Notes under the pieces: generated by a model
Databases searched by the model: none
The model's input: only the letters and a program-made list of their open reading frames with translations
Told to the model about the DNA's origin: nothing
Position numbers and translations under genes: made by a program
Origin: Porphyra umbilicalis
Taxonomy: Eukaryota > Rhodophyta > Bangiophyceae > Bangiales > Bangiaceae
Direction: 5' to 3'
DNA length: 64,000 bases
NCBI GenBank assembly: GCA_002049455.2
Contig: KV919092.1
Span: forward strand, 1-64,000
Shown here: positions 41,312 to 62,400 of the stretch, piece after piece
Numbering within the stretch: position 1 is the stretch's first letter
Layout of the letters: the number at the start of each line of letters is the position of its first letter

Positions 41312-42904
41312 CGCGCACCGCCAGAGCCCTCACCCCTTCCGCCTCGTGAACCCAGCAAGGTACTCGGTGCGTCAATGAGCGAAGAGATGCAGATATGGGA
41401 CGCCGCGGCACATGAAGCAAATGGCGCAGACGACGACCCCGCGCGCTGCTAGCTAGCCGACGAAAGTTTGAGTCACAGCTGAAGAGGAGCAGCGACACGC
41501 GCTGTAACAATGCCACAACCCCAAGACCACCGCCCAGCAGCCCGGCCTGGTTGCCGACCACACCACAACGCGTACGCAACGGCCTGCAGGGACGGTGAAT
41601 GAAAAACGTCGGGGAGCCGGAACGGGTAAAAGAGGAAGGGACGCGAGGCGCTCCAGCATGTGAGGCTGGTGTGCCAGTCGCGGGCTGGCGCAGCACCAGC
41701 GGAAGGCGGCCTGGGTGGCGGCACGCAGCACGCTGGTTCTGACGGTGTGCGCTCGCGCAGCAGCTGCAGGGCCCGCCTCGACTGTCCAGTGTCGCAAGGT
41801 AGCACCCACTCTGTTCAGTCAACATGAGAGGCTGCCAGCCAGGGCCAATCATGAGTTGTTGACTGTGCTGCCCAATCAGAAGCACAGCATGGAAAACACT
41901 TGCCACGATAATTTCCGGTGATGCAGCGCGAACGGGGAATGATGTGACCACAAATGAGCGGATAACGATACTGTATTCCTCATCATTCAAGGATATGTGC
42001 GCCAACTTGGGCAGCGAATTTCGTCTCTCATCCGGCAGAGGTTCGTGCAGCGCCACCTGCGTAGCGGGCCAGAACAGAGCGGGATCGCCAGTATATCTCC
42101 GCTCCCGGTGCACAACTGTAGTCGCCTCTTTGACAACAGCAATGAAGTCTGTCACTATTTTGCATCGTCAGTTCTGCACCGGAACGTGAAGAATGAGACT
42201 ACAGTGCGTTCTTGTTATAAGAGACAGCTGATTCAGCTCAATACGAATAAAAAGTAGCACGGACTGGAATGGAACACTCGCGCGTCATCTTCACGCAGCT
42301 CTACCATGGCAGCGTTCAGCCGCAGGTCGATGGCCTTGAGAGCAAGTCTATCCGTGGGCCATTGTGCTATCGCCATCTGGCCGTATTTTTTTGGCTATGG
42401 CCAAGAGCATCTCTATCAGTCAATTCTAAAGTCTGTCTCACTCTATTAGTCCTCTGAGAACCGCACTTTTTTGGGAAAGACCAGAACTCCGCCGCTACGA
42501 CCGCAAATGACAAGCAGTCTTCACACAAGGGATAGAGACCCCCCAAACCTTTTTACTGCAAGAAATGGTACACATTCTTTTGTAGGAAGCCCTTCAACGG
42601 CACACCTATGTCGAAAAGATACGGCTCAGTCGCTTCGTTTTCAGGCCTTCCGGCACACTGGGCGAGCCGCACGAGGTCACAGCACCGTTTTTCGCATTTT
42701 TCCCATGTTCATATGGTGGTTTTCCCAATTTTGGCCACGCCGCGGGAGGCGTAGTTTGCCCAAACTATTATGGACCACTTAGTCTCGATTGTGCTCTGAA
42801 TTGACCTCGATCTTCGCCACAGCCAATAGTAATGGAGGACCGCGGGATCATGACATCACAGCCGATGTTTTCAATGTGCGCATCCCGTTCCGACATGTTG
42901 CCTG
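41312..42904. other. Intergenic, no supported gene
   Basis: Balanced base composition, no long frames. It contains the 5' flank of the E2 gene. Confidence 0.4.
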
Positions 42905-43045
42905 CACGCCTGTTCCCGTCGCAGCCGACTGAGCCCCGTGCCTGTCTCCGTCGCAACCGACTGAGCCCCGCGCCTGTCTCCGTCGCAACCGACTGAGCCC
43001 CGCGCCTGTTTCCGTTGCAGCCAACCGAGTCCCGCGCCTGTTACA
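42905..43045. repeat. 32-bp tandem repeat, four units
   Basis: The anchor GTCGCA/GTTGCA recurs at 42918, 42950, 42982 and 43014, exactly 32 bp apart. The unit is of the form GTCGCAACCGACTGAGCCCC plus CGCGCCTGTCTCC. Confidence 0.85.
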
Positions 43046-43319
43046 GACAGGCCGCCACGCGAGGATACATACAGTGCGACGACCCTTCCAGCGCCGACTC
43101 ACGAGAGTAATTCCCCAACCCGCCGTCAGTGCCGCAACCCGGGGGGCGTGGTGTGCCGCGGTGATCCGAGCGCGGATCACGGCAGGGTGACGACGGTCAC
43201 CGCGGCGTCCGGGTATCGTGGGGGTCGTCGCCGCAACGGTGGCGACGACGGCGGCGGCAGGTGCCGACGGCTGTCTCGGTGGGACGGCGCCAGGTCCCGA
43301 CGACGGCGGTGGCGGTGGC

Positions 43320-44430
43320 ACGGCCGCAGGTGACGACTGCGGCAGGTGCGACGGCGGTCGCGGTGCGACGGCGGTCGCGGTGCGACGGCGGCCGGTGCCG
43401 ACGGCGGTCGCGGTGCGACGGCGGCCGGTGCCGACGTCGGTCGCGGTGCGACGGCGGGGCGTGGCGACGGCGGCAGGTGCGGGCGGCGGCCGGTGCCGAC
43501 GACGGTCGCGGTGCGACGGCGGCCGGTGCCGACGTCGGTCGCGGTGCGACGGCGGGGCGTGGCGACGGCGGCAGGTGCGGGCGGCGGCCGGTGCCGAAGA
43601 CGGTCGCGGTGCGACGGCGGTAGGTGGCAACCAGTGACGGTGCCGACGGCGGCCGGTGCCGACGGCGGTCGCGGTGCGACGGCGGGGCGTGGCGACGGCG
43701 GCAGGTGCGGGCGGCGGCCGGTGCCGACGACGGTCGCGGTGCGACGGCGGTAGGTGGCAACCAGTGACGGTGCCGACGGCGGCCGGTGACGACGCAGGTC
43801 GCGGTGCGACGGCGGGGCGTGGCGACGGCGGCAGGTGCGGGCGGCGGCCGGTGCCGACGACGGTCGCGGTGCGACGGCGGTAGGTGGCAACCAGTGACGG
43901 TGCCGACGGCGGCCGGTGACGACGCAGGTCGCGGTGCGACGGCGGGGCGTGGCGACGGCGGCAGGTGCGGGCGGCGGCCGGTGCCGACGACGGTCGCGGT
44001 GCGACGGCGGTAGGTGGCAACCAGTGACGGTGCCGACGGCGGCCGGTGACGACGCAGGTCGCGGTGCGACGGCGGGGCGTGGCGACGGCGGCAGGTGCGG
44101 GCGGCGGCCGGTGCCGACGACGGTCGCGGTGCGACGGCGGTAGGTGGCAACCATTGACGGTGCCGACGGCGGCCGGTGACGACGCAGGTCGCGGTGCGAC
44201 GGCGGGGCGTGGCGACGGCGGCAGGTGCGGGCGGCGGCCGGTGCCGACGACGGTCGCGGTGCGACGGCGGTAGGTGGCAACCAGTGACGGTGCCGACGGC
44301 GGCCGGTGACGACGCAGGTCGCGGTGCGACGGCGGCAGGTGCCGACGGCGGCCGGTGCCGACGGCGGTCGCGGTGCGACGGCGGCACGTGGCGACGGCGG
44401 CAGGTGCGGACGGCGTTGACGGTGGGAGGT
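43320..44430. repeat. 130-bp homogenised satellite array
   Basis: The anchor CCAGTGACGG recurs at 43631, 43761, 43891, 44021, 44151 (one base changed) and 44281, exactly 130 bp apart. Adjacent units are almost identical. The 5' flank (43320-43620) has shorter sub-repeats made of the same GGTCGCGGTGCGACGGCGGC modules. Because 130 is not a multiple of three and stops are absent on the minus strand, three minus-strand frames stay open for 367-548 codons. I treat these as artefacts. Confidence 0.92.
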
Positions 44431-44438
44431 CGGTCGTC

Positions 44439-45218
44439 ATGACGAGGTGCAGCATTTGCCAGTTTGTCAGCACCGCGGACGGGCAGACGCACAACGCTCG
44501 GACGTGCCCTCTCAGGCAGACGCATTGTCGGCGTTCGCTACATGAGGGGCACCCTTTCCATGAGCCTGGGCAATGCGTCAGTGCAACGTGTGTTCACAAG
44601 CAGAAATGTAACACCTGTGGCTTGTTTGGCCATCTCTACGGCACGCAGGCGCTCACCGTGGAGCGGTGGAGGCTTAACAAGAAGGGCCGCCTCGTGCGGA
44701 AGCCGACCAAACGGCCCCTCTGCAAGGAAGACTTTGTGTGCGCTCTCATGACCGACGTGTCCATCCAAAGCATGGTTGACAACTCCGTCAGCGTCTCCAC
44801 AGCGGCAGCGCAGGACGCGCACACGCGGCGGGTGGCGACGTCGCGCCTACGAGGAAACACAAACGTAGAGCAGCTGGACATCGACGAGACGGTCAATGTC
44901 ATGGAGGGGTTGAACAGCGATGCCGCTGTCCTCCAAAAGGAGAACAAGACGCAGATCAAGACGCTCTACAAAAATCTCCACCTCGGCGCCGTGGCGGCCA
45001 ACCGCCTGGCCGCTTCGGCCGCCGAGAGTAGTTTTGACGAGGCCACGCCGTCTCCCTCCGACAGTGAGCACGGTGCCCACATGTTGAGCACGTCATCTGG
45101 TAGCGAGGCGGCCGCGGCAGCTGCCGGCGCCAGGCGCAGCCGTGGCCGAGGGCGCAGACCCCGGGGCTCTGGCAACAGAGGGACGGGGCGTAGGGGCAGC
45201 GGCAGCGGTGGCGGCAGC

Positions 45219-45261
<43 letters not shown>

Positions 45262-46136
45262 GCTGTAGCGGCGGTGATCGCAGTGGCAGCGGCGGCAGCG
45301 GAAAGAAGAAGATGGCGCTGAAATCTACGCGGGCGCACAACGCGGGGCGGCAGAGCCGGACGGACCGCTACGCGGCGGCCGTGGCGAAAGGGCAGAGGGC
45401 GTCGCCTTCCAAGAGAGGCGTCACAGGCAAGGGAAAGGGTCCGGCCCGAAAGGGGTCGATGGCGGCGGCACCAATTGATGTCGACGATCTCGACGACAAT
45501 GACAGCTTAGTGGCAGTGAACGATGGGTGGCCTGCGGGGACGCGAGCGCGGTTTGAAACTCGCCTGCCCGAGTTTTTCTCGCCGCGCTTCGGTGGAAACC
45601 CCCCCGCACGCATTGCCCACGCCGTCGTTGTCCAGCTTTATCAGTGCCCGATCGAAGACGTCGACGCTGAGATGGCCGGGGTGGTCGTCAAGGGGGCGTC
45701 GGACTCGCAGTTGCGTGGTTACATGCTAACCTCTGGCACGTTGTCCGCGGCGCAGGTTGCGGAGTGGCTGTGCTGCGCCATGACCTCCGCACTCCGCTTC
45801 GCGACGCTGCCAAGCATGGCCATGGCGCTTGAGCGCGTTGTTAACAAGGCGGCCGCGGAAGCTGCGAACGCTTCTGGCGTTGGGGTGGCTGCAGCCGCCG
45901 CTCGGGCGGCCGCCGGACCTGTCGCCACTGCTGCGCCACGGGGCTGTGTCCCACGCCTTGCAACAGTAGCAGATGCTGCCACCGTTCCGCCCGTGCGGCC
46001 CGCGGCCGCCGTCGTGCCGACCCTGACAGCTGTGTCCCCCGCGGCTGCGGGTTCGACGCCGGCGTTCTCTGGCATCCCCCCGGTCGCGGCCACAACTAAG
46101 GCGGCCACGGTCGAGGCCGGTGAGCGATCGTGTTGA
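44439..46136 (+). CDS. Cys/His-rich zinc-module protein A (unknown family)
   Basis: 565 aa from ATG 44439, just after the 130-bp array. Residues 1-67 carry an 11-ligand pattern: C4-x2-C7-x10-H18-x4-C23 (THNARTCPLR), C30, C46-x4-C51-x-H53-x3-C57-x2-CG-x2-GH65. The last part matches the start of a CCHC zinc knuckle (CxxCGxxGH), and the HNxRTC stretch recalls knuckles in MULE/SWIM proteins. A W-x-L..GR..DFVCAL segment follows (about 75-110), then a helical region, an RGR/Gly-rich tract (GGC repeat 45190-45270), a basic GKGKGPARK patch, an acidic IDVDDLDDND motif resembling a SUMO-interacting motif, a predicted helical domain (ARFETRLPEFF to ERVVNKAA) and an Ala/Pro tail. The start is supported by the paralogue at 52201, whose Met lies at the same place. 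No introns. Function unknown; nuclear nucleic-acid binding is an inference. Confidence 0.7.
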
Positions 46137-47457
46137 ACCACTGGTGACAAGGTGCTCGTGCTGAGGTGCAGCAGGAGAAGGGAATCCCAGTTGATAGACA
46201 CATAGAGGCGGGGGTGGGCCCCAAATGGTGGGTTTCAGACGGATCTCGGGGACTAGCCCCGAGGGACGGACATCGGCAGACAAGAAACCTGCTCGCTCCA
46301 ACACTTTGTTGCCTCAGGCTAGTTCTTTTTTTCTTCATGTAGGTCGTGCACCGTGGTGAGGGCTCCAACCGCCCTTCTTGTACTCCTCTCGACGATTTCT
46401 GAACACATATGGCGCCCCCCCTGCCATCGCTCAATACAGAAGCACCGTGACTCCTGGGCTTGCCTCCCCCACCGCACCCATAGCCAATTTGGCCGCCACA
46501 CCCCCTCCTACGCCCCCGCCCGCCCACCGCCACCGTCAGCACTGCGCCAATCGTCACTGCTGGCGGCCGGCATGGCGCAATGTGGGGCACACCCGTTGGC
46601 CTGAACGCCGCCTTTTTTCGCACGGGGGCATCTGGCCCTCGCACCAAGTCGATGTGCGACTTGGCCGCGAACGGGCGCGGCTGTGTTCTGCGGCGGGGCG
46701 ACCGAAAAACGGTCCCTGCAGTGTCGTGGGCTGCCAAAGGATGACCCAGGAACGACGGCACCAGCAGGACTCCGGTACCGTGCAAGCGGCCAGCAGTTTC
46801 AGAGGTCATCTGAAGCAATACTGGTATTTCGGGCATCAAAATTGAGCAACAACAAAGATCCGTTGACTGTCCATCAATGGGCGGGGCAGCAATCGCTGGA
46901 GCCTCCAATCGCCCCCAACGTGTGCCAGACTCAGCCCTCCCTTTCTCTCTGTCTCCCCGGCGGCCTTTCGTGTGTTGGCCAGGATCTTACACGAGACTGG
47001 TATCCCTCAGAGGTTGCCCCTTAGGGGCGCCTGCCGCCCCCCTGGGGCGTCCACAGCCACCCCAAACGGAAGGGATCCCACATGGCCTGCATCTTCGGCG
47101 CCCCGTCGCCGTGGGGTCGCACTCGACTCAGTACACTCTCTCAGTTGCCCGTTTCTCCACAGGAAAGGTCCGTGGCTACGGGCCGCACATCTTCAGTCCA
47201 CCAACCCAGTGGTCACACGGAGACGCTGGACACCGGGAGCGCCATTCGGCGCTGTTGCGGCGTTCACTCTGTTTTCTCACCTCGGCCGTGCGCGCGCGGT
47301 GCCCGTCCGATGCTGCAACCACTCTGGTCTCTTGTCGCTCCAATCATGGTAACTGCGTTATCGCCTGCAGTACGACGGGAATGTTGTTCGCAAGGGCGTT
47401 CCTGGCGACTTGGACACATCGTGTCAACCGGGTGCGCTCCGCTCGCCCGACGTCGCC
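46137..47457. other. Region between zinc-module and ePHD genes
   Basis: A minus frame at 46096-46908 and + frames to 47352 have no recognisable domain. Part of this may be 5' exon or leader of the ePHD gene. Confidence 0.35.
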
Positions 47458-48032
47458 GTCGCGAACGTCTCTCTCGTCGGCGTCGGCTGCACAGCCGTCG
47501 GCGCCGGTCCCGCCGCTGTTGACGCCGCGGCCAGCGGCGGTGCCGTCGGCGCAGTCTAGCGCATCCCCACACCCTCCATCGCCTCCGCCGCCGCCGACGC
47601 CGCCGCCGTCGCTGCCAGCGGCGGTGCCGTCGGCGCAGCCGAGCGCGTCGCCACCACAGCCAACGGCATTGCCTCCGCGCCGCCGCGATCGCCGCCGCGG
47701 CCACCGCCTCCGCCGCCGCCCCCATCACCGGCGCGGAGCGTCGGTGCCGTCTTCACAGCGTGACGCCTCGCCACCACAACAACCGCCACCGCCACCGCCT
47801 CCGCCGCCGCCCCCACCGCCGGTGCCGAGCGTCGGTGCCGTCGTCACAGCGTGGCGCGTCGCCACCACAACCACCGCCACCGCCATCACCTCCGCCGCCG
47901 CGGCCACCGCCGCCGCCGCCGCCGCCAGCGCTGGTGCCGAGCGGTGGTGCCTTCGGCGCGGCCGCGCGCCCCGGTCGTCATGAACCCCCTTCCGCCCACA
48001 CCTCCGCCCACACCTCCGCCGATGGCACCGCC

Positions 48033-48063
<31 letters not shown>

Positions 48064-48090
48064 CCAGCGCCGGTGCCGTCGACGCAGCGT
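47458..48090 (+). repeat. Pro-codon (CCG/CCA) repeats with VPS-x-ASP spacer
   Basis: About five units of poly-Pro codons are each followed by a GTGCCGTC-type box (VPSAQ/VPSxQR-xASP). The motif appears successively in different frames, so small indels separate the units. The last unit is in frame with the ePHD gene. Confidence 0.65.
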
Positions 48091-50112
48091 ACCGCGTCGC
48101 TGCCCTCTCCACTACCAGCGGCCGGGCCGCGTCCTCAGCGGCGTTCTCTGTTCCCGCCTGCTGCCGGACACCCGGACCATGACATTCCTGTGATTTCTCT
48201 GATCACTCCACCCGCGTCGCCCAAGGCGGCCGGCGTTGCACCTACTCAGCAACCCTCTACAAGTCGTCCGTTCCCCGCGTCGAACGAGTTGGCATCCTCG
48301 CGCCAACCCGCTTCCGCTCTGTCACGCCCAGCTCTTCGGGAACCCCGTCCCTCCCGTCATCGCGCTCGCCGTCAGTCTACTACCCCAATTTCCTATAATC
48401 CACGGGGGTGGCGTTTTGCCCCCTCGAAGACCCCCCCGTCGGGATTCTCCTCCGATGAGGTGGAAGACGGCCTACCCCCACCGCCCCGCATTGTCCGGGG
48501 ACTCACCGAGTTCCCTTCGTCCGTTGCGACGAGGGAGCAAGCTCGGCTGGACAGCGCATGGTGGTATCGCTTGGTGGCGGCGGACAGGCGTAAGCAGGAC
48601 AGGGAGAAGACTGTCGAAGGGGCAGCTGCGACCGAGCCGTACTCGGGGAAGGGGAAGGGCCCCGCCGGCAGCGGCTCTGCGGGCGGCTCAGCCGCGGTGG
48701 CGACGGAGCCCATCAAGGGCGGTGTCTCGTGGTGGCAGGTCACCGAACGTGCGGGAGCCCCGTCGGTTGGCCGGAAGAAGGCGCGCACGAAGCCAGTTGT
48801 GGAGCAGGCCGAGCCCGTGTGCGCCTTCTGTCCGAAGGTCAACCGTACTGGCGGGACCCTGCCGTCGCCCCTGATCGGCCCGTTCACGTTCCGGCAGGGA
48901 AAGAGCTTCTATGTGCACCACATCTGCGCCATGTGGGCGCCCGAAGTCTACCACGACCCCGAGACGGACAACATGCGCAACGTCGTCGCAGCATATCACC
49001 GCAGTCGGGGCCTGACGTGCTCGGTGTGCATCACCAACAGCGCGACGGTGGGCTGCTACGTGGCCGAGTGCAGGCACGCGTACCACTACTGCTGTTTGTA
49101 CGGCCACCCTCCTCCCTCAAAGTCGCACCCCGAGGAGAACGGACCATGTGTCAGGCACGACGAGCACTACGCGGCTTTCTGCCCGGCGCACGCGGCAAGG
49201 GCCAACGACGAAGCGTTCGTGCGGCGCATGACCGACGACGCGGCTTTGTCAACGTTTCTGTCGGACCGCGCGGCAGCGGTGCAAGCCGCACTGGAGGATG
49301 AGCCTACCCAGGGCATGGACTGCCCCAACTATGCAGTGACTGGTGTCCGGCGCAACGAAACGGAGACCATCTTCTGTCGGGTGTGGGGCGTATCTTCCGT
49401 CGAGTTCGACACCGCATGGGTTACCGTCGCTGGGCACCCTTACCGACGGGTCGTCCGCAGCGGCGAGCGGGTTGCGACCCGAGATCATCCTCGGCAAGTC
49501 CCTCGGTGCGCTCTTTCGGTCGCGCTGCGCGCAGGAGGGGCGGGCGCCGCACGTGGAGGTGCCGCCGGTATCCAGACGTCGCTGGCGAATGTCGGTGACG
49601 CGGTGGCGCCCGACGACGGGAATGCCAGTGCCGCGGCAGCCGCCAGTGCAGCGGATGCAGCTGGTGAGCTAGCGGCGGGGGGAAGGCAGCGGGGAGAAGC
49701 CGAGGTCGCGGCTGCTGGTCAGTCCCCCGTTTTCCTCTTACGCAACGTCAGACGAGTACAGGGCGTTGGACGAGGCGCTTTCCGGCGGTCGCTTCCGGCA
49801 GTACCTGGTTCCTTTTTGCGCACGACTGTCGTCAGGAGTGTGCCCACCCGTCGACTGTCCCTACCGGTGGGCATGGGCGGTGCCGAGTCTCTGAGGCCGC
49901 TCGGTCGTGGGGGACCGGCTACTGATGGTGGTGGCCGCGTGGGGTCGGCTGTTCGCGGTGGTGGAGCAGCTGCTGCTGGCGGTACCGGCGAGGGGTCAGC
50001 CGGCAACGGTGGGGAGTCGGTGAGCCGCTCTTTTAACGGGTGGCCGCCGCCGCGGCCGCTGCCAGGTCCCAACGCCGAAGAGGGAGCATCTTGGAATGAC
50101 AAGCAGGAATAG
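47980..50112 (+). CDS. Extended PHD-finger (ePHD) protein
   Basis: Likely chromatin-associated protein. From ATG 47980: a Pro-rich start, a disordered region with ISYNPRGW and SDEVEDGLPPPP, the helix LDSAWWYRLVAADRRKQ, and an ePHD domain at about 280-405. That domain has CAFC, FRQGKSFYVHHICAMWAPEV, CSVC, CYVAECRHAYHYCC and FCPAHA, the C2HC knuckle plus atypical PHD pattern known from AF10/PHF6/JADE-type proteins. A segment with ETIFCRVWGVSS..HPYRRVVR follows. Near 49466 the better coding frame shifts by one base (SGLRPEIILGKSLGALFRSR, then YRALDEALSGGRFRQYLVPF) and stops at TGA 49892, with one TAG that a 33-nt intron starting GTGAGC could remove. The open frame I list continues instead to 50112. 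So the C-terminus is either frameshifted or mis-assembled, and the start may lie further upstream. Confidence 0.75.
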
Positions 50113-50489
50113 ACAGTTTTTTTTTTGTCACAAGCGACAAACAGCGCCCGCGTGCGCGCCCCACCTCCACAACCCGCGCCACCTGCACACCAGCCAGCAG
50201 CCCTGCCGCCGGCTCGGCCGTTGCGTGGGTAGGACCGCACTCTTCACCACCTCCCGTGCTCCCCGCCCCCCGCGGCACACACCATCATGACGCAAACCCC
50301 GTCGCACCGATCGCCCCAGACCAGCATTCGCCTCCTCCCCGTTCATCACTGCCGCGGCCGGCCGCCGCGGGCACAGCCGCGAGCGCGCGTGCGTCGGGCG
50401 CACTGATGCCCCGCGCCATGTCGCCGGGGGCCGGCGAGGACGCGGAGGCGGTGGCGTTGCTCTTGGCGGCCGGCGATAACGCGGCGGCG

Positions 50490-51020
50490 GCGAAGCTGCT
50501 CGGCGAGGGCGGCGCCGGGACAAGACTCGGCGGCGACGGCGGCGGCGGCTGCGGAGGTGGTGGCGACGGCGGCGATGGAGGCGGCGGCGGCCGCCACAGA
50601 CGCGGCCGGCACCACCATTGCGCCGTTGCAGCCGACATTGCGACGCCGCCGCCGCCGACGCCGCCGCAGCCGACCCCGCCGCCGCCGCCGATGCCACCGC
50701 CGCCGCCGCGGCCGCCGCCGCCGCCGACGCCACCGCCTCCGCCGCCGCCGCCGCCGTCGCCGCCGAGCCTCGTCCTGGCGCCGCCCTCGCCGAGCAGCGT
50801 CGCCGCCGCCGCGTGATCGCGGCGGAGGTGGTGGCGGCGGCGGCGATGGTGGCGGCGGCGGCGGCCGCAGACGCGGCCGGCTCCACCATTGCGCCGTTGC
50901 AGCCGACATTGCGCCGCCGCCGACAACGCCGGCGCCGCAGCCGACGCCGCCGCCGCCGCCGATGCCACGGCCGCCGCCGCCACCGCCGCCACCGCCACCA
51001 CCGCCGCCGCCGCCGCTGAT
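50490..51020. repeat. 270-bp GC-rich duplication with internal inverted repeats
   Basis: A block with AGACGCGGCCGG and CCATTGCGCCGTTGCAGCCGA recurs at about 50598 and 50868 (270 bp apart). A 55-bp block at about 50490-50545 recurs inverted at about 50750-50805. The rest is GCC/GGC runs. The frames on both strands are low-complexity and are not called. Confidence 0.75.
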
Positions 51021-52200
51021 GTGCTCAGAAGCCTCTCCCAAAGACCTCGTCTGCGCCACTCGGGACGGACCGCGCTGGCCTCGTAGCAGCGGCGCTGCAA
51101 CGCCGCCGCCGACGCATTGCCGGCGGCAATGAGGGTGGGGGGAGCAGGGCAGAAGCCGCCAGAGCGCGACAACCTGTCGGTGTGGAACGCCAAACGGTGT
51201 GCGGAGCAGCCAGCGCCATGGTGGGGGGTGAGGGGACCCCGCGGGAAAGAGGGGGGGGGGGGGCACGAACGAGCTGCGGGGCGCGCGCAGGGGAGGGTGG
51301 GAAAGTAGGGGGGGGAAGGTTGCAGCCGGGCCGCTGGCCGCGCAATGGGATCAAACGATGAGCTCCCTGGAAACGCACAGGACGGACGGCAACGCCACTT
51401 TTCGTCAAGGACGACCAGCCCACAATGACAGTGATGATGTGGCCAATTGGATTCCGTCGTTCACGCGAGATGTTGAACAACCGTCCTCTTCGCCAAAAAA
51501 AGGAAGCCCCCAGGGCGATCAATTCATTTCCACGACAGAGGGCGGGACTTTGGACGAGAGTCTTCACTGTTGCATTTGCACCGGAAGAGTCACTATCGAC
51601 AGCCAGCTCCTTGGGCGCGTCTGGGAGGCCACATGGAACGTTGGCGCCCTTCAGCTTCAAGATACGACACTGAACGCACTTTCAGCAGCCCAGAGAGCTC
51701 TGAACCATGGCAGCTCCAACCTTTCTTCAGACTGTGAGCAAAATGCATGCGAGTTGGCGGATCTCTGGCCGATCTCCACCGGCGAGCACCCTCCAGCGTC
51801 GGTCCAGTCTCGGGACGGCGAAGAAAGGACGCCGTCCCGCGACCACCCAATGGGTCCAACGTAGTGCCGTCGTCTTCCTCGGTGCCCGGCGCCAGGCACT
51901 GGCAAGGGTTGGTCATTCTCGTCGCTGTCGCCCTGTCGTCGACATCCTCCCAACCGCCATCGCAGCGCACCCCTCCCAACATCTCATCGGCGAGAACACG
52001 AGTCGTGTTCCTGGTACGTGAGCAGTTGTGGCTCCCTTATGGCGAGAGAGCATATGTTTTATTGGACAAACGCAGTACGGTACGACTCGTGTTATGAGCA
52101 GTGTTCTGACCCACTCGCTGTATTGAAATGTTCCTCGACGTGGCCCCACGCTTTCAAATGCATGTCATCTGCTGAGCTCCATACAGGGGCACGAAGAATC
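51021..52200. other. No supported gene
   Basis: Frames 51358-51864 (+) and 51025-51660 (-) overlap and match nothing. The region probably contains the 5' flank of zinc-module gene B. Confidence 0.35.
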
Positions 52201-52671
52201 ATGCTTTGCGTCCTGTGCAGGTTCCAGAGCGCCGCCGGGGAACGAGGCCACAGTGCTCGTTGCTGCCCGTTGCGAGAGCTGGAGTGCCGCCACACGCTCT
52301 CCGAGGACAGCCCGTTTGTTCTCCCCGGGCGCTGCCTCAATGAGCATTGCGTTCATCTCCAGCCCTGCTCCGCGTGCGGTCTGATCGGCCACTCGCGCTT
52401 CACCCTCAAGTTGGACACCGCGCGATGGGAGCTTTCGGCTGGCGGGCGGCCCATCCACCGCCTGCACTCCCCCAGGGCGCTCACTCGTCAGGACTTTGTG
52501 TGCCAGTTGGTGAGCGAGCGTCAAGTTCTGCGACTCGTCGCGTCTGCCCATGCATTGGCTCTGGCTCGGACGTATCCTGTTTTCTCGACATTCAATTTTT
52601 TTCGTCTTGCGGGAGGACGCTTGCTTCCCACTGGGTTGCGCGTTGTGGTGGGAATGCACAGCAGTAAATAA
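52201..52671 (+). CDS. Cys/His-rich zinc-module protein B (paralogue of A)
   Basis: 156 aa from ATG 52201. The first 64 residues align without gaps to protein A: C3-x2-C6-x10-H17-x4-C22 (CCPLR), C29, C45-x4-C50-x-H52-x3-C56-x2-CG-x2-GH64, all 11 ligands conserved at constant spacing although other residues differ widely. The downstream segment is also shared (W-E-L-x3-GR then ALTRQDFVCQLVSE against W-R-L-x3-GR then PLCKEDFVCALMTD). After about residue 115 the two diverge, and B ends soon after without A's Gly-rich, basic and acidic regions. It may be a short paralogue, a truncated copy, or the first exon of a longer gene. The frame is open further upstream (52018) without similarity to A. Confidence 0.62.
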   Translation: MLCVLCRFQSAAGERGHSARCCPLRELECRHTLSEDSPFVLPGRCLNEHCVHLQPCSACGLIGHSRFTLKLDTARWELSAGGRPIHRLHSPRALTRQDFVCQLVSERQVLRLVASAHALALARTYPVFSTFNFFRLAGGRLLPTGLRVVVGMHSSK

Positions 52672-53041
52672 GGCGCAGCCTGAGCCACGCCGAAGCTGCT
52701 CCGAGAGACCGAACCGCCGCAGCACGGTGGGCATCAAAACTCGCCTTGACAGTGACGGGCGAATAGGACGGCTCCGAGCGGATCAAGAGCTGTGAAGACA
52801 GAAACCGGTCAGGCGTTTGCTCCGCCTCGTCCGATTTTTCGATAACCATTGATCCAGAAACCATCGCAGGCTCTCTCCCCGCCAGCGTTTGCTTGGTCTT
52901 GGACGCGTGGCTCTCCTGTTTTCACCACCTCTGCCCATCCCTGCTCCACGCACTCTCCTCTCGCTTTCCACCATTCACCATCCACACTCCAACCCCTTCT
53001 GTCTGCTACTACTCGTAGCTCCGGCCATCGCCTCCTCCACA

Positions 53042-53596
53042 ATGTGTGCGAGTCGCTCCGGCTCCCGCGACGACGGCAAGGCAGCCGAGAAGCCGCACTC
53101 TCTTCCCGCGACGGCGGAACACGGCCGGCCGGCGCGGGCGACAGAGCAGGCTGCGCTTGCGCGCATCGGCCAGTTTGTTCGGCAGGCAGGCTCGCTAGGA
53201 CTGCGTGTGCAGCGCACGACGATTGCGCCTGCGCCTGTCCCGCACCGCGGTCGTACCCCCAATGAGCCAGGGCCCACCCTCATCTTTAGTGACGAGAGCA
53301 GCGTCGGTCCGTGCATTGTCTCGGTGGAGCAACCCACCGCGAGCACCGGCAGCTCCAGCGGCCGGCCTTTCAACGAGCCGGTGATGCCGCCCAGCGACTC
53401 GGAGGCGGAGACGCAGGTTCCTCGTCGGGCTGGTGGGGAGGAGAACGGGCATCGCGGCCGTCTCGTCGATGGTGCCGGCCGCGGTACCGGCGGCGCTGCT
53501 GCTACTGTGGCGGGCCCGAGAATGGCGGCTGCATCATCGGCCGGTGACGGCAAGGGAGGCTTGTCGGGTGCTGCGGGTACAAGCAGCAGCGACTAG
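53042..53596 (+). CDS. Hypothetical protein, 184 aa
   Basis: Unrecognised. The reading from ATG 53042 has mixed composition with stretches such as ALARIGQFVRQAGSLGLRVQ and GPTLIFSDESSVGPCIVSVE, an acidic SDSEAE patch and a Gly/Ala-rich tail, ending at TAG 53594. A pyrimidine-rich leader (CTCTCC, CCACC) precedes it. It could be a separate gene or a further exon of the zinc-module/ePHD group. The opposite strand is also open over most of it, which lowers confidence. Confidence 0.35.
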   Translation: MCASRSGSRDDGKAAEKPHSLPATAEHGRPARATEQAALARIGQFVRQAGSLGLRVQRTTIAPAPVPHRGRTPNEPGPTLIFSDESSVGPCIVSVEQPTASTGSSSGRPFNEPVMPPSDSEAETQVPRRAGGEENGHRGRLVDGAGRGTGGAAATVAGPRMAAASSAGDGKGGLSGAAGTSSSD

Positions 53597-56279
53597 GGTG
53601 CCATCTTGTGGGACCGCTGCGCACGCTCTCGCTTCATCATTACGTGGGGGACTCGGGGGGTGCGTTTCTCAGAATGTGAGGGGGGTGTGGGTGGGTGTTG
53701 TGTCTTCGTGCTACTCTGTGCTTCGAACTGATGTCTTCTTGGATACCACAGTACGCGTGCGGCGGCCCCGTGCTGCGCACGCGCGACGGTCGGGCGGCAT
53801 GCGCCGCCCGCGCGCAGCGCCGCCCGTCACGTGTCGGTCGCGCCCCTGGGCCAGACGCCCAACAGCGGCGCGCTCGGTCGAGGACGGGTGCGGGTGGGCG
53901 TTTGGGAGCCAACCCTTTGAGGCGCACCGTCGTCCGAGGGCGCTCGCCAGACCGCCGCGGCCTCGGGTGGCGGGGGCAACGGGCGTCTACCCTCTAGTCT
54001 CCAGTGGCCGCTGGGACGAGTCGCCCCGGCCCGTTGGCGCGCATGCGGCCGGCGCGGCGGCCGACGTGTCGTGCAAAGGTGGTCGGTCACTGGCCGCCAG
54101 CGAGGCAGCGGCGGCGTGCGGGGGCCGACACCCGTGGCCCGCCTCGCCACGGCTGCAGCGTGAGGTGCGCGAAACGGGTGGTGAGGATGCCGGGGGGGTG
54201 GGCATGTGCAGGTCGCGTCCAGAGCGCCACGTGCCGAGGGCGGACCGGCGACTCGACACTACACGCAGCGGGTCTGGTTGTGCTGGAGGTCAGGGAGCTG
54301 ACCATGGCCGGCGGTGGCGGAGGTGGGCGCGCTTGGTTGCCGCAGACGGTCGTACAAGCGAGTTGGCGGCAGGGCTCGTCGGTACCGCTTTGTTGTCTGT
54401 ACTCGCAGACGTCCGTCGTAACCGTTGCTATGGTCAGCGCCATGGGAACGCGACAACTTCCGCAACGTAGACACGAGCCCCATGCGTGCGAGTAAAAGGA
54501 ACAAAAAGACCTGCAACCTGACTACCCTAGTCTCTGCGTAGCTCGCAGCACGCGATCTCATCACACACCCCCGCCCCGTCAAACCTCCTATATCTCGGCC
54601 ATCCCTGTTACATTCGGTCATTTGTACACCTCGCCCGACGCGACGTTGATACGCACGAAGTGGGGGAGGTGGTCTCCATCGGCGTGCCGCACGACGTCGC
54701 TCGTCGCCTGGTGCCGCCGCGGTCGCCGGGCGGCGACGGTCACTGTTGGGGGGGCGGCGCCGCGCGGCGCCGGGCGGTCGCCGCCGCCACGGCCCCCGCT
54801 CCGTGCCCCGCGTGCCCCGACGCACCCAGACGGTGGCGGCGGCGGATGGGCTGGCGGCGGAACCGCGCGTCGATGACGCGCATCCGGTGAGTGGACGCCC
54901 GACTGGCGACAACAGGTGGGACAGGGTGGACGCTTTCCGGCGCGGAGGTTGGGTGAGGCGCAGCAGGGCGGCGCAACGGCGGGGGGGAGGCGGTGGGCGT
55001 GGGGCGGGGGTAGTGTGGGCCGCGTCTGTCAGTCGACGCGCGGTCACCGTCCCGCGACGTCGTTCCGCCGCGCGGTGCTCCCGCGCCTGTGCTGGCGTGG
55101 CGCTCACTTGCCCCGCCAGCGTTGCCGCCGTCACTGGCTCGGACGTGGAGCCACCCGACGGCCGCCGCCGATTGCGGGACGACGACGGTGATCTCGTGGC
55201 GGACAGCGGTGTTATCAATCTACACATACGAGAAGCGACGGCATTTTGGGGCACAGGGAAAAGAGGAAAAGACATCGTGAGTTATATGTTTAGACGGGCA
55301 TGAGCACACAGGCTGCTTTCCACAGAGAAAAAGGAGACAATGTCATGGAACAGCGCTGCTGTGATGGCCACCACATCGACCACTGCTTCATTCACCAAAG
55401 ACAAGCTCGTGGGGGGCACGAGACGATGCCGGAGATCAACGTACACGAATAGACGACTGAAGCAAAATGCGCGAAAGAGGGTTAGAACAGCACACGTACA
55501 GGGTGAATGCGTCGGAAGACAATCAGAACAGGAGAGGACGATAACCCAAAGATGGGACGGTGTTGGAGCCGTCGCGTCCACACGGCGACGGCGGCATACC
55601 GAGCGGACAAGGACGGCCTCGCAACGAGCGGACGAGTGCAGCCAACGACGCGGGCATGGGGACGGCGTCACGACGGGGGCGACCTGTGGCCTCCCGACCC
55701 ACCAGCCGAGCACAGAGACAGGTGATCGCGAGAGCAGCAACCGGGACGACCGGCGCCAAAAGTGAGAGCGCTTGGACATGCAGCAAGGAGATGTTGCAGA
55801 CGTTTCGGCAGCCATGTCGTGAGATATGGGATCAGAATGATACTTCGGACCGAAACGGCCCTGAAGTCTCCAAACTGGACAGGATATTCATCATTTTTGG
55901 AGTAGCCCCCGCCGTTTTCCCGGAGTTGGTACGCAGGGGATGCGTTTCGGACGACAATGTCATGTAGTTGTTTTCGATCCATGTCGCGCTTCGAGTTCCA
56001 CTCCCTGTGCTGTTCATGCCATATGCGGATTCGGAAATCGACCGCGGCTGAGGCTGATAGACAGGCTACTTGATAGCTGTCAGCCAAAACCATTTAGGCC
56101 GGGCGCCTGGCAGACAGCAAACGCAGCGACCATCCCACTCCCATCACTTGCAACCCGTCCGCAGCAGCGACGGCTGCGGCATCCGCGTCTCGCGCTACGC
56201 TGGCAGCCACCCGTCCCCCTCCCAACCTGCTGCCGCATGGTGGCGGTGACGGAGGCGCCCGCAGCGCCGGCCGCCACTG
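53597..56279. other. GC-rich accessory DNA, no supported gene
   Basis: Arg/Ala-rich frames overlap on both strands (53433-54470 +, 54259-55275 -). From 55300 to 56090 the composition is balanced with only short frames. Nothing recognised. Confidence 0.35.
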
Positions 56280-57080
56280 TGCCTCGAACACGGCGGCCGG
56301 CGCCACTGCACTGGCGGCGGTGACGCGGAGGCGACGGCGGCGCCCGCGGAGTCCGCCGCCGCTCTGCCGTGGACACGGTGGCTACGGCCTCTGCACTAGC
56401 GGCGGTGAGGCGGCGACGACGGTGGTGCTGCGGCGCTCGCGGCGTCCGCCGCCGCTCTGCTGTGGACACGGTGGCTACGGCCTCTGCACTGACGGCGGTG
56501 AGGCGGCGGCGACGGTGGTGCTGCGGCGCTCGCGGCGTCGGCCGCCGCTTTGCCGCGAAGACGGCGGCCACCGCCTCTGCACTGGCGGCGGTGAGGCGGC
56601 GGCGACGGCGGTGATGGCGGCGCTCGCGGCGTCGGCCGCCGCTTTGCCGCGAGCACGGTGACCACCGCCTCTGCGCTGGCGGCGGTGAGGCGGCAGCGAC
56701 GTCAGTGACGGCGGCTTCGGGCGCCGCTCGGCCTCGGACACGGTGGCTACTGCCTCGGTTGTGGCGGCTATGATGGCGGCGGCGACGGCAGTGGCGATGG
56801 CGGTGCCCGCGGCGTCCGCCGCAGCTCAGCCACGGAAAACGGCGGATACCTCTTGGGTAGTGGCGGCAATGGCGGCGGCTGTGACGGCGGCGGTGACGGC
56901 GGCGCCCGCGGCGGTGACCGCCGCTCGGCCGCGAACACGGCGGCCACCGCCTCTGTTGTGATGGCTATGTTGTGGCGGCGGTGAGGCGCCGATGACGGCG
57001 GCGCCCGCGGCAGGACCGCCGCTCGGCCGCGAACACGGCGGCCGTCGCCTCGGTAGTGGTGGCGGTGACGGCGGCCCCCG
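56280..57080. repeat. 90-bp tandem repeat, degenerate
   Basis: The block GTGGACACGGTGGCTACGGC recurs at about 56373 and 56463, with diverged forms near 56553 and 56649, 90-96 bp apart; looser units continue to about 57080. The arms contain GGC/GTC runs. Frames on both strands are repeat-derived. Confidence 0.75.
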
Positions 57081-57577
57081 CGGCATCGACCCCCGCTTGG
57101 CAGCTGCGCCGGCGCCGTAGCCGCCGGACCTGGCGAGCGTGCGCGTGGCCTCGGTAGTCCCTGGCGGCGGCGCCAAGGATTCTGTCGCCAAGCCTGTGAC
57201 GGCCATCGCCCGGCGGCGCTGATCGCGGGTGGAGCGGGTCGTCCCATCGAGGTTGGCCGCAGCTGAGCGGCGGGGGTTGGGGGAGGACTACCGGGCTGCC
57301 GCCCAAGCTCGCAACGGTCGGCGGAGGATGAGGGGAAGGCGGCAGTCACACTGTGTGGCGCTAGGATTCACAACCAACACTGGTGGCTGGGGCTGGTATC
57401 CACAGTCGGCACCGGGACGATTGCCTCTCTGAAGAATAATAGAACCTACTTTGTCAAGCGCACCAACGCCACGTGCAAACACACCCACACTTCAGAGGAA
57501 AAGGCACTGGCTACTGGCTCCAGACGTGCAGCCAGAAACAGAATAGAGATACCATCAACAAAGAAAGAATCACCAAC

Positions 57578-58834
57578 TCACGCAGGAGCCACACCCGTCA
57601 GGAGCCGGGAGATCTCGTGCGACACACGGGAGAACTGGCCGGCCACCTGGGCAGTGGTGAGCATGCCGACGGCGGCAGCCATCAGGTGGAAGGGCTTGTC
57701 CAAGTACCGCCCGTCCTCGTACACGAGCGACCTCACGTGCTCCTTGAGATCGGCGAAGACGCCCTCGATCGGCTGCAAGTTTGGAGAGTACGGAGGGAGC
57801 CGCACATAGTGGATGCCATTCGCCTGCATATACTCGTCCCCCCAGTGGTCGTGGATGCTCGCGTTGTCGTACAGCACTACGCAGGCGTCCGGCTGCATCT
57901 CGCACGGCAGCCCCGGGATGTACGTGTTCATGAGCGCGTGAAGACATTGAAGGAACAAGCGCCAGTCGTCCGACGTCTGCGCATTGCCGACTATGACGGT
58001 CTGCCACCACAGCACGCCGTGCGTCAGCGTCACGCCCATCATCGTGCTCGTCCGCTTCATCGTCCGCGTGTACCGGTCGCGCAGGACGCACGGCACGTTC
58101 CTCCGGGATCTACCAAAGCGACGTAGCATGTCGCTCCCCGCCGTGTGCGTCTCGTCGCACGACACGAGGCATCGCATAGGAATCTCATTGACCAGGACAG
58201 CAAACGCCCGTTGGGCCGCCTCGGAGCTTTCTGCGTACAGCCGCTCAATCTTCTTGCGAGTGTAGCCGTGGTACCGCAGCACGCGGTACACTGTCGCCGC
58301 GCTGACCCAACGATGGTCGCTGGTGGGGTAGTCCAAGCTCAGCGCCACGAGCAGGTCCACGTGGTCACGCAAAAACGCCGCCGGCTCCGTCTCCACAAGG
58401 GTGAGGATGGCGCGCGTGAGATGTGGGTTGCGGATGGCCGCGTCGTTGTGGTGGTTTCGCAGCCGTGAATGGCACCAGACCGTGCCGTTTGTCTCAAAGT
58501 GCTGGATCCAGCGGCGCATGGACCGCTCCGAGCATCCAATAATCTCGGCCACGTCGCCGGAGGGGTAGCCCTCTCCCAGTAGACCGAGCACGTGCTCGCG
58601 CGTCTCCTCCGAGAACATGTCGATGCCGTCGGGGGCAGCGTCGCAGTCGTCCCCGGACAGCTCCGACGCGTCCGTCTCGGTTGACGACGAAGATATTGAT
58701 GACAGTGTCGAGTCCGTCCCGACAGACGTCGTTGAGCTCGTCCCGGCCGACATCACACACGACGACAGCGAGTCCTCGGTCGACGACCTGCGCGCGGAGA
58801 AGATCGTCTGCACGACGCCAGCCGACACGGACAT
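57578..58834 (-). CDS. IS630/Tc1-mariner-superfamily DDE transposase
   Basis: Intact-looking 418-aa transposase from ATG 58834 to TGA 57578; the frame is open further upstream through a repeat. A Ser/Asp-rich N-terminus is followed by an HTH region (FSEETREHVLGLLGEGYPSG, DVAEIIGCSERSMRRWIQHF), a second winged-helix part ending at TVYRVLRYHGYTRKKIERL, then the DDE domain: SCDETHTAGSDMLRRFGRSR (first Asp), ACVVLYDNASIH (second Asp) and LPPYSPNLQPIEGVFADLKE (catalytic Glu). By my count 33 residues separate the last two acidic residues, one fewer than in Tc1. This is the DDE_3 pattern, which catalyses cut-and-paste transposition usually into TA. No TIRs were identified. No stops or frameshifts interrupt it, so it could be recent. 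Confidence 0.9.
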   Translation of the reverse strand: MSVSAGVVQTIFSARRSSTEDSLSSCVMSAGTSSTTSVGTDSTLSSISSSSTETDASELSGDDCDAAPDGIDMFSEETREHVLGLLGEGYPSGDVAEIIGCSERSMRRWIQHFETNGTVWCHSRLRNHHNDAAIRNPHLTRAILTLVETEPAAFLRDHVDLLVALSLDYPTSDHRWVSAATVYRVLRYHGYTRKKIERLYAESSEAAQRAFAVLVNEIPMRCLVSCDETHTAGSDMLRRFGRSRRNVPCVLRDRYTRTMKRTSTMMGVTLTHGVLWWQTVIVGNAQTSDDWRLFLQCLHALMNTYIPGLPCEMQPDACVVLYDNASIHDHWGDEYMQANGIHYVRLPPYSPNLQPIEGVFADLKEHVRSLVYEDGRYLDKPFHLMAAAVGMLTTAQVAGQFSRVSHEISRLLTGVAPA

Positions 58835-58928
58835 CACGCGGCAACGCCCCGTCGGCGGCGAGCGGGGACGGAGAAGCACGCTGAGAACGGTGGCGGTGAC
58901 CCGTCGGCGGCGGGAAGGGACGGAGGGG

Positions 58929-59300
58929 GACGACCGCCGATGAACGCGTCGGTGCCCCGTCGGTGGCGGGCGAAAGGAAGCGGGCGGCGAGGGACACACG
59001 CGGAGGAAGGCGCCGGTGCGCCGTCGGCGGCGGGCAGGGACGGAGGGGGACGACCGCTAAGGAACGCGCCGGTGCCCCGCCGGTGGCGGGCGAGAGGAAA
59101 CGGGCCGCGAGGGACACACGCGGAGGAAGGCGCCAGTGCGCCGTCGGCGGCGGCCAGGGACGGAGGGGGACGACCGCCAAGGAACGCGCCGGTGCGCCGT
59201 CGGTGGCGGGCGAGAGGAAACGGGCGGCGAGGGACACACGCGGAGGAATGCGCCGGTGCCCCGTCGTCATTGGCGTGCGGGAACGGGCGGCGGAGGCGAG
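58929..59300. repeat. 120-bp tandem repeat at the 5' side of the transposase
   Basis: The anchor GACGACCGC recurs at 58929, 59049 and 59169, exactly 120 bp apart, with near-identical units. Partial diverged units continue to about 59480. The upstream extension of the transposase frame (58835-58999) falls partly in it, which is why the ATG at 58834 was preferred. Confidence 0.88.
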
Positions 59301-59480
59301 GGAGACGCCCAGCAATCACGCGGCGCTCCTCGGATGGCCGGCGGTGAGGGGGATGCACACCCAAAAAGGTGACGCCGCCCCGTCGGCGGCGGCGAGGGAC
59401 GGGGCAGCACGCCGAGAAAGGTGGCGCCGCCCCCGCAGGCGGCGGGCAGGGTCGGAGGGGGACGCACGCTGAGGAAGGCG

Positions 59481-62400
59481 GCGGTGCCGCGTCCGTGGCG
59501 GGCGGAAATGGACAGCGGCGGAGAAGGCGACACAGAGCAGCGCGGGGGCGCCCCCTGGGTGGCGGGTGGGGATGGTGGGGAGGTCGAAGCGGCGGCGAAG
59601 GGCAAGACGCTGTGGCGCACGCGCCACCGACCGAGAGGGAGCGCGGGGGAATCCTCCAGGGGTCGCGCGGGAACCCGCCAGAGGACACGGGGGAACCCGC
59701 ATGCCCGACGTTGCCCACAAGGAAAAGGCAACGCGACCTGCTCGAAGAGAGCGGTCCGTAAAGCTGTCTGTCGGGTTATCAGCTTGAATTGTTGTGCGGA
59801 TTGTCACGGAAACCAGTGCCATTCGCCGCACCAGTGCCTGTCAGTGCGGGAAATGGGTCGGCCGAGCGGAATTTAGATGTGCCCCAGTCACGAATGACGC
59901 GGTCAGACGAAGTTTGATTTCGGCCCACTGAACGTCAGCTGCCTATCTGATTTGGCCCGTTCCGGGCCAACCCACATTGCCGTGAGTCGAGCTGTGAATA
60001 GACCAATGAGGGTGCTTCGCCTGCTCCAGGGGATGCTGACAGCGTCCGATGGGGGGTGATACTTTGCCCGCCCCTGGAGGCTCAGAGCAAAGGTGAATGC
60101 TCTCATTAAGAACTACACCCCCACTGAGAGCCCCAGTTAGGGGTTCTCATTTGGGTCATTTGCTGAGGACACGATACTTTGCCCACCCGCGCCGCGTGCA
60201 CGCCTGGCTGGCACAAGCGCATTCTCTGGGGGCCACCGGAGAGCCGAATATGTGGGACTGGGCCACATACATCTCGTCCAGGTACCGGGGGCCATCGAGA
60301 GAGGCACACATGACAGAGCTGCTGGCGTCCCGCTTGCACTCGTCATCAGCGATTCTGATGCATTGGGGGGGGGGGGGGGATGGCATGTCATAGTTTCCGC
60401 AAACTACGCCTCCCGCGGCGTGGCCAAAATTGGGAAAACCACCATATACCTCGTGCATTCGAGTGCACTATTCTGCGCAGGGCTCCAATCCCACTGGCCG
60501 AAGGTAGACGTTCGTAAAGAGTATGTCGAGAAGAAGCGTAAGCGTTTTGTTGCAGCGATCCCCTGACATTGGGAGGCTACTTAAAAGTTCGCTCATCCAG
60601 AAGTGCGGTCTCTTGCGCGACTTTTGAGATTCGATATCACGAGATCCGGCAGTCCATAGAGTCGCGCGCTTCGTCAGTAGCCAATGAGCGCCTGTGCATG
60701 GGCACTCCCAAAATAAATCCAAGAATGCCCTCGAAAGCCTCTTTGAGTGGCTCAAGCGCCATCGCACACCTACCCGCCCACCCTTTCCCCGCCGTCGCTG
60801 TCGTACCTTCCGCGGTCGCTGTCGTGGGGCAGCGTGTGCGTGCCACTGCACCGGTGGCCGAAGCGGACTATTCGCTCCAGAAAAGCAACGGCACCGCCGG
60901 GGAGCGCTATGCGGGGGATGGGCGGGGGGAGGGTGGCGGGGGGGTTGGGGGAACAGCTGCTCCGCACAACTGCAGTTGCTTTGCGTCGGCGGTGACGAGC
61001 GTCGCGCCGGCGGCGACGAGCGCCGCACTGCATTTCAGCGCGGCGGCTGACGCCGCCGGCGACGGGCGTGCTCCAACCGCCGACGTGGTCGCGTGCGCCG
61101 CACCCGCCGTCGCAAGCGGCGTCAGCGCTACGGCTGCACCTGCCGCTGCCAGCGGCGGAACTGCGATCGCAACCGTATCCGCCACCATGCCTACATCCAC
61201 CGCCCCGTTGTCGACCCCACAGCCCGCGCGGGCCAACTGCGCCGGCCCACCACCAGAAGGGCCCGAGCGTGGGCGGGTGGGGGGGGGGGGGGGCAGGGGA
61301 CGGAGGCGGCACTGCGCTCAGAGGGCGCGCGTGCCGGGGCGGTGGCAGCCGGCGCCGACAGCCAGGGCAGCATGCCGCTGACGCCGGTGGGCGTCCAGCT
61401 GTGCACAGAAGTCGGAGGCCGCTGCCAGAAAGTTGATATGGCTGACGTTTCTCAGATACTTGTTCACCGTGAATTCTCTTCCCTTGGTCAACTGTCACCG
61501 TACTTGCTCCTTATCCGTGCGGCATCACAAGATCTCGCTCACGAGGCTGAAAACGTAGCCTCCCTGTCCTTGCGTTCTTCCCGATTTGGTCAGTCATAAA
61601 TCGGGTGCTGTCGAGAATCGGGCGGATCGGATGCCCCTGATCGATACGAATGCGGAAGTGGGCATCAATGGGTGGGATGTGCTGCGCTTCGCGCTCCGTT
61701 TTTTCTTCTGAGGACCCAAGGGCCACCCTCTGATACGTCTACGAAGTTTGGGGTCGATTGATGTACATGCGCCGAAACCAGAGCCGTTTTTCCATAGGAC
61801 TAATAAGATGAGATAGACTTTGGTGCTATACATGCAAATCCAGCTGCTCATCCCCTTCTAAAGGCCCATACCTCTCGGATGACTCGCAAAGCACCTTCCA
61901 GTACAGATGATGGCCTTGTATGGTTCGAAGTCCGCGCACAGAGGGCCTGTGGTAAGGTAGCCAAAACAATTCCGAACTGGCGCGTTCGAGAGACGCTGTT
62001 GCTCGTCGATCTATTGGTCCACGTCTTTGGCACAAAGGATGGCTATAGCTATCCTTCTGGCTATCATGCGCACGTTTGGCACGAAGGATAGCAATATGGC
62101 ACAGAATGTGGCAAAATGACCTCCCGATAGAGACGCCCTTGGCCATCGGGTGGCAAAATGGCACACCGATAGACTTGATCTATCCACGAATTACTCAAAT
62201 GGTTCCAGCCTTTTCTCCAGGATAACCCAGTGAATGTTCTGTGGGCATCAAGCATCGCACTGCAGGCGACTCGCTCTGTGTTGCTATTCGTGCTGTGATA
62301 CGCAAAAGCACGGTTGGTATCCTCAAGTGGTGGGCCGATATGTATTGGGGAGAGACACCACTTTCCGAGCTGAGGAAAACCATGGGTCGTAGGGGCGAAA

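Follow-up and report, generated by a model that had tools for sequence, protein, structure and literature searches.

Autonomous members of the IS630/Tc1/mariner group of DNA transposons usually have a single open reading frame (ORF), elements of the Sailor group being given as 1.38–6.98 kb (PMC8533490), and maT-group Tc1/mariner elements have been reported from red algae (PMC7325037). Here we describe an element found in the first 64,000 nucleotides of contig KV919092.1 of the red alga Porphyra umbilicalis (NCBI GenBank assembly GCA_002049455.2, forward strand; this whole stretch is referred to as the window). It shares with the IS630/Tc1/mariner group the TA duplication, the terminal inverted repeats and a DDE_3 transposase with an N-terminal helix-turn-helix (HTH), but differs in that the distance between paired ends in its family is 11.8–25.5 kb and in the presence of several conserved genes. 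Two of these, A and B, encode proteins with a common Cys/His module and flank a gene for an ePHD protein; in a sister type of the element a gene with the CXC and SET domains of Enhancer of zeste (E(z)) is found.

Other described systems share part of these characteristics. The TBE elements of the ciliate Oxytricha are about 4 kb long, and the transposase of VANDAL elements is of the MULE type. For TBE, the excerpt of PMC4724952 names neither an ePHD nor an E(z)-like gene, which sets it apart from the elements described here. VANDAL is similar in having accessory genes beside the transposase and tandem-repeated DNA that varies between copies (PMC5735166), but the domains of its VANC proteins are DUF1985 and DUF287 (PMC5735166), which were not matched in A, B or the ePHD protein (Pfam, E up to 1), and anti-silencing has been shown for VANC, whereas it is proposed here. 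SETMAR also unites a SET methyltransferase with a mariner transposase, but there the SET gene belongs to the host and is joined to a domesticated transposase (PMC8616336), whereas in Porphyra a separate CXC+SET gene lies inside many mobile elements. Compared with E(z)/EZH2 itself, the CXC and SET domains are the same, but the genes are transposon-borne and occur at 92 merged loci, some of which are fragments. In our literature search we found no giant Tc1/mariner element with E(z) or ePHD cargo; Repbase was outside its scope and an earlier description is possible.

The transposon and its relatives in the genome

Almost certainly, one IS630/Tc1/mariner-type DNA transposon of 17.7 kb, inserted at a TA, carries the genes for A, the ePHD protein and B as its cargo. 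Its principal features are:

42714–60444, no strand: whole transposon, 17,731 bp, delimited by the shared repeat unit, the terminal repeats with TA and the joined flanks
42712–42713, no strand: left target-site duplication TA
60445–60446, no strand: right target-site duplication TA
42714–42759, + strand: left terminal inverted repeat, 46 bp
60399–60444, − strand: right terminal inverted repeat, 46 bp
44439–46136, + strand: gene A, 565 aa, with the Cys/His module in residues 1–120
47980–50112, + strand: ePHD protein, between A and B, 710 aa
52201–52671, + strand: gene B, 156 aa, with the second Cys/His module
57578–58834, − strand: DDE_3 transposase, 418 aa

The terminal inverted repeats are identical at 46 of 46 bp (53 of 55 over the first 55 bp) and TA adjoins both ends. 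When the window was compared with parts of seven further contigs from this genome, a repeat unit running from approximately 42711 to approximately 60449 emerged. A search with the terminal repeat pattern, allowing up to 3 mismatches, returned 19 ends in the genome; the reversed-pattern control returned 0. When 200 bases of each flank were joined with one TA, 40 uninterrupted sites (out of 100 candidates) were scored at 94–97% identity, each spanning at least bases 3–399 of the 400-base query across the junction, which indicates that the window element was inserted in a repeat of which other copies are uninterrupted. The close copies on contigs C68 and C131 (97.2–98.9% identity over kilobases) suggest recent spread. 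The transposase matches PF13358 (DDE_3; E 1.7e-11) and HTH_23 (E 1.7e-6; 28.1 bits vs. a cut-off of 24.6), and its triad, picked by motif, is D227-D323-E357 with 95 and 33 residues between, the D–E spacing of 33 counting among its differences from other IS630/Tc1/mariner members; against PDB sequences the match to Sleeping Beauty is non-significant (E 0.52). The original prediction, which was made from the letters of the window, had offered a large mobile element as one explanation for the three genes, all on the + strand, and the inverted repeats, TA, uninterrupted sites, transposase and many copies all agree with this; its extent up to 60444 and the transposase gene on the − strand at 57578–58834 had been missed. 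The flanks (42514–42713 and 60447–60646) belong to a dispersed repeat of which at least 40 more copies exist, and on contig C85 (approximately 192600–231500) many copies of it stand in tandem, about every 3.14 kb.

Of 11 matches to phycobilisome families in the genome, ten are on contig C665, by appearance a plastid, which together with a GC content near 65% points to a red alga, perhaps of the Bangiales. The genome (83.8 Mb) was searched with the module of B (best 150 of 209 candidates) and that of a relative on contig C346 (best 150 of 171), which gave 150 and 18 further places, merged to 167, some of which are still fragments of one gene; for the transposase, the best 100 of 385 candidates were taken. 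Since only the best-scored candidates were used, the resulting counts, i.e., at least 167 places for the module and at least 101 for a related transposase, are lower bounds. The module thus has further copies in the same genome, something the earlier note had proposed to check. For the ePHD region all 47 of 47 candidates were scored, resulting in 43 matches, and for the SET region 108 of 108, resulting in 116 matches, which merge to 92 loci (some still fragments of one gene).

These genes occur together far more often than uniform placement, the assumption behind all chance expectations given here, would predict. A module lies within 25 kb of 75 of the 101 listed transposases (expected 9.5%, or about 10) and a transposase within 25 kb of 97 of the 167 listed module places (expected 5.8%). 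SET is found within this distance of 47 listed transposases and ePHD of 32; 79 have either one and none (0/101) has both, which suggests that the two have interchangeable roles. The module is the most constant partner among those listed. In most members of the family, the transposase is accompanied by one or two Cys/His-module proteins and a single protein of chromatin type. The commonest arrangement of at least three genes, present in 10 clusters, is module, ePHD, module, and then the transposase in opposite orientation. Both ends were located for 12 elements, one (on contig C250) picked for its prior gene hits and 11 from genome-wide end patterns, and all 12 enclose module and transposase: the six of the window type have ePHD in five cases (C51 is without a listed ePHD) and the six of the sister type have SET in all. 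Paired ends were not found in the examined stretches of C346, C219 and C94. Terminal-repeat matches also occur on two contigs without a listed module, ePHD, transposase or SET match (C257:73899–73926 and 80718–80745; C253:82062–82087), and these are possibly internally deleted copies.

The Cys/His module and the chromatin-related genes

The A and B proteins align by BLASTP over 120 residues with 40% identity (E 5e-28), a similarity far beyond chance. As had been noted earlier, they share eleven potential ligands without gaps (C4, C7, H18, C23, C30, C46, C51, H53, C57, C60 and H65 in A numbering; the first Cys stands at position 4 of A and position 3 of B), the single gap of the alignment lying after this block; the downstream W..GR..DFVC segment is likewise shared, and its cysteine, C101, forms a twelfth. 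In a comparison of 15 members, all from this genome (the two of the window and 13 from nine other contigs), C4, C7, H18, C30, C57, C60 and C101 are invariant and C46 and H65 nearly so, with C23, C51 and H53 variable. Pfam searches with whole A (best E 0.76) and whole B (best E 0.16) recognised no family, the best match of the 15 trimmed members was to zf-CCHC_6 (E 0.028; A 14.7 bits vs. a cut-off of 22), and the 15-member profile found nothing below E 0.29 among PDB sequences. A named zinc finger was rejected on this basis, in line, as far as tested, with the earlier remark that the spacing fits none, and a CCHC zinc knuckle (C-x2-C-x4-H-x4-C) was rejected because A has Q instead of C at position 70. 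We regard it as an undescribed protein module, outside the Pfam families as far as tested, and infer from its residues alone that it would bind zinc.

Gene A has a second conserved part at about residues 292–469 in its C-terminal region. The module of A in the copy on C121 is broken across separate frames. The gene model of B at 52201–52671, an open frame as originally described, is probably incomplete: the open frame extends back to an ATG at 52039, conservation with the relative on C250 ends at about 52569, and a further conserved reading frame follows:

53012–53416, + strand: another conserved reading frame, 39% identical to C250 across 137 aa (E 6e-19)

This is perhaps the 3′ part of B. 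At the same position the identity on the opposite strand is 42% across 90 aa (E 5e-6), and a Pfam scan of 53042–53596 was without match. In the copy on C219 the two parts of B are about 6 kb apart.

The protein encoded between A and B was confirmed as an ePHD protein, with matches above the curated cut-offs to PF13771 (zf-HC5HC2H; E 1e-9, 38.9 bits vs. 29.1) and PF13832 (E 3.4e-7); its best PDB sequence match is Jade-1 (E 6e-8). In the sister type its place seems to be taken by an E(z)-like gene. The element on C115 has an inverted repeat of 26/26 bp that begins with TA, both ends beginning TATGG, and contains two modules and a transposase matched by DDE_3 (E 1.3e-14). It also encodes a 1198-aa protein in which preSET_CXC and SET domains were recognised; for the last 252 residues of this protein, EZH2 is the best PDB sequence match (E 1e-33). 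The terminal repeat pattern of the C115 element matches 19 ends when 3 mismatches at most are allowed (reversed control 0), and six contigs have both ends. In the proteins on C115 and C346, the only two element proteins of this kind that were read, CXC is followed by SET, both above the Pfam cut-offs; between two sister elements the CXC+SET region gave dN 0.37 at a near-saturated dS of about 2.2. The genome matches reported above for SET were obtained with the 252-residue region of C115; 66 of the 92 merged loci have a module within 25 kb, 51 a transposase and 78 either one, while ePHD is found near none of them within 20 kb and near one within 40 kb. The host E(z) is likely the CXC+SET gene on C76, around which neither a module nor a transposase is listed out to 40 kb. 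On C346, a module gene and a transposase approximately 24 kb apart enclose a protein (65359–66987, − strand) in which PF00403, a heavy-metal-associated domain, is matched in two stretches (E 7e-24); the 30 kb examined there gave no paired ends.

Selection on these genes was estimated from the ratio of nonsynonymous to synonymous substitution (dN/dS; Nei-Gojobori, tblastn-aligned codons, stop codons omitted) for the window, the seven contigs compared above and two further contigs. Copies with broken frames, such as module A of C121, are absent from some comparisons. The ranges given here omit C131 for the A module and C219 for B, each of which is matched best by the other paralogue; comparisons that involve C115 or C346 (module 0.26–0.44, transposase 0.12–0.43, mostly at near-saturated dS) and close pairs (0.17–1.31) are omitted as well. 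Module A, ePHD and the transposase are under purifying selection between diverged copies: window-type pairs with dS > 0.35 gave 0.07–0.11 for module A, 0.09–0.25 for ePHD and 0.11–0.22 for the transposase. For the window and C18, C250 and C121, respectively, the values are 0.09 and 0.08 (module A, first two only), 0.11, 0.20 and 0.10 (ePHD residues 275–500), and 0.18, 0.15 and 0.15 (transposase), so that module A and ePHD are about as strongly constrained as the transposase. The rest of A gave 0.24 (C18) and 0.20 (C250), and B 0.41 (C18 and C121) and 0.35 (C250).

The element also contains the following tandem arrays:

42907–43042, no strand: array of a 32-bp unit, 4.2 copies
43252–44415, no strand: 65/130-bp array upstream of gene A
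50644–51015: tandem array
56248–57063, no strand: 93/99-bp array inside the element
58894–59266, no strand: 120-bp array upstream of the transposase start

The 32-bp unit is present in five of nine examined copies (window, C68, C94, C121 and C219). The array upstream of A comprises 7.9 copies of 130 bp at 43378–44406; in seven of the nine copies an array in this position has a Tandem Repeats Finder (TRF) score of at least 130, C18 being the weakest, and its period varies from copy to copy. The original prediction had described it as a 130-bp satellite and had considered a satellite-associated gene family: the array exists, but it is an internal part of the element with a period that differs between copies, and for this reason a satellite-linked host gene family was rejected. 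All four TRF-listed tandem-repeat regions of at least 300 bp in the window fall inside the transposon.

Elsewhere in the window, relics of other mobile elements were observed, i.e., a fragment with a hAT dimerisation domain (18102–19070, − strand; PF05699, E 1.5e-9), a relic of a DNA transposon, and a probable Copia relic with a weak, below cut-off reverse-transcriptase match (36841–37623, + strand; PF07727, E 1.5e-4). A 1089-aa open frame at 5753–9022 (− strand), with HLGH and KMSKS motifs, reads like leucyl-tRNA synthetase and is presumably an ordinary host gene.

Possible roles of the accessory genes

No C5 DNA methyltransferase (PF00145) was found in this genome (0 matches, with 10 of 14 prokaryotic control genomes positive), from which it would seem that a transposon here faces Polycomb-type silencing rather than DNA methylation. 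In another red alga, Cyanidioschyzon merolae, H3K27me3 has been found on transposable elements and knockout of E(z) led to their expression (PMC13353863, citing Hisanaga 2023), and the Arabidopsis VANC proteins bind motifs of their own element, often tandem repeats, and strip silent marks (PMC5735166, PMC10398659). We therefore consider it slightly better than an even chance (approximately 0.55), judging from sequence, that the Cys/His proteins bind to the element and direct a chromatin factor at silencing of the Polycomb type. The transposase would move the element at TA, as known for its family and as supported by the ends and empty sites. The module would fold around zinc and bind DNA of the element, e.g., its internal tandem arrays, so that the Cys/His proteins would mark element copies and bring the element's chromatin protein there. 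This protein, ePHD or E(z)-like, would disturb or redirect the Polycomb (H3K27) silencing of the host, and with silencing blunted the transposase would be expressed and the element could spread. The ePHD and E(z)-like proteins would then be two answers to one problem, and elements of both types may interfere with the machinery that silences them. The wider proposition, that a giant Tc1/mariner family took up a host E(z), or an ePHD reader in the branch of the window, with the zinc module aiming it at the copies as a Polycomb hijack, is more tentative, and we would put it a little short of even odds. The earlier suggestion that the genes are chromatin-associated fits the ePHD and sister CXC+SET genes, by their domains only.

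Several observations count against this reading. Self-silencing or the targeting of insertions would leave the same traces as anti-silencing. No listed transposase, ePHD or SET occurs within 25 kb of 28 of the 167 module places, and 10 of the 101 transposases have no listed partner within that distance. The array upstream of A is weak in C250 (TRF score at most 73) and was not detected in C346, for which 942 bases were searched. AlphaFold, given only the two window sequences as input, modelled the module with a predicted local distance difference test (pLDDT) score of 39.9. Constraint on B and on the rest of A is weaker (0.20–0.41 for window pairs), and dN/dS among very close copies is 0.17–1.31, which fits decay of many recent copies. 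Finally, after the Asn-His pair the SET domain of C115 reads NHRRKELAN, compared to NHSVNPNC in EZH2, while the motif of C346, NHSSDSPN, is closer to the canonical one, so that activity may vary between copies.

Part of this evidence can be explained otherwise. The Cys/His proteins could be transposition factors that act with the transposase on the ends or subterminal DNA, with the ePHD or E(z)-like protein steering insertion towards a chromatin state. That the module is the transposase's most constant listed partner (75/101 within 25 kb), that module A is constrained like the transposase, and that TBE, also Tc1/mariner, has a zinc-finger ORF under purifying selection (PMC4724952) would all fit; we nevertheless think this unlikely, since targeting would more naturally be the task of a transposase-fused domain and an E(z)-like protein would be more than a reader. 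Still less probable seems to us self-restraint, in which the element recruits its own Polycomb-type factor and silences itself, causing less damage to the host at a lower copy number. E(z) proteins are, by family, silencing enzymes, and the near-canonical NHS motif is kept in C346, but the near-identical copies on C131 and C68, with a transposase dS of 0.003–0.010, point to recent spread.

Two further explanations were rejected and are, in our view, very improbable. Large DNA transposons are able to capture host genes, and dN/dS of 0.49–1.12 for B, ePHD and the rest of A among very close copies would suit host genes caught by chance and carried unused; however, A, ePHD and B are under purifying selection when diverged copies are compared, which led us to reject chance passengers, and the same module recurs across divergent element types. 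The least likely explanation of all, a virus-like element or endogenous virus with a transposase of the Tc1/mariner type, would account for several genes within 11.8–25.5 kb. It was rejected as well: Pfam scans of part of the open frames of the window element (A, B, the ePHD protein, the transposase, and the frames 46877–47983, 53042–53596, 53469–54470 and 54259–55275) showed no viral hallmark, and no relative in IMG/VR was confirmed in a search that reaches close relatives only. The aiming of a chromatin factor at Polycomb-type silencing by the Cys/His proteins is the reading that we prefer.

Implications for Tc1/mariner elements and Polycomb silencing

Tc1/mariner elements are usually small, one-gene elements, whereas those described here are 12–25 kb long and have selectively constrained accessory genes; within an entire branch of them, E(z)-like CXC+SET genes are present dozens of times. 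Also defined here is a Cys/His module that occurs at 167 or more places in a single genome. For such algae, tallies of E(z) or SET genes may be inflated by transposons. A review reports the proposal that the ancestral role of the Polycomb repressive complex 2 (PRC2) was the repression of transposable elements (PMC8788455). Elements that carry the catalytic subunit of PRC2, or an ePHD protein instead, would make the other side of this contest testable.

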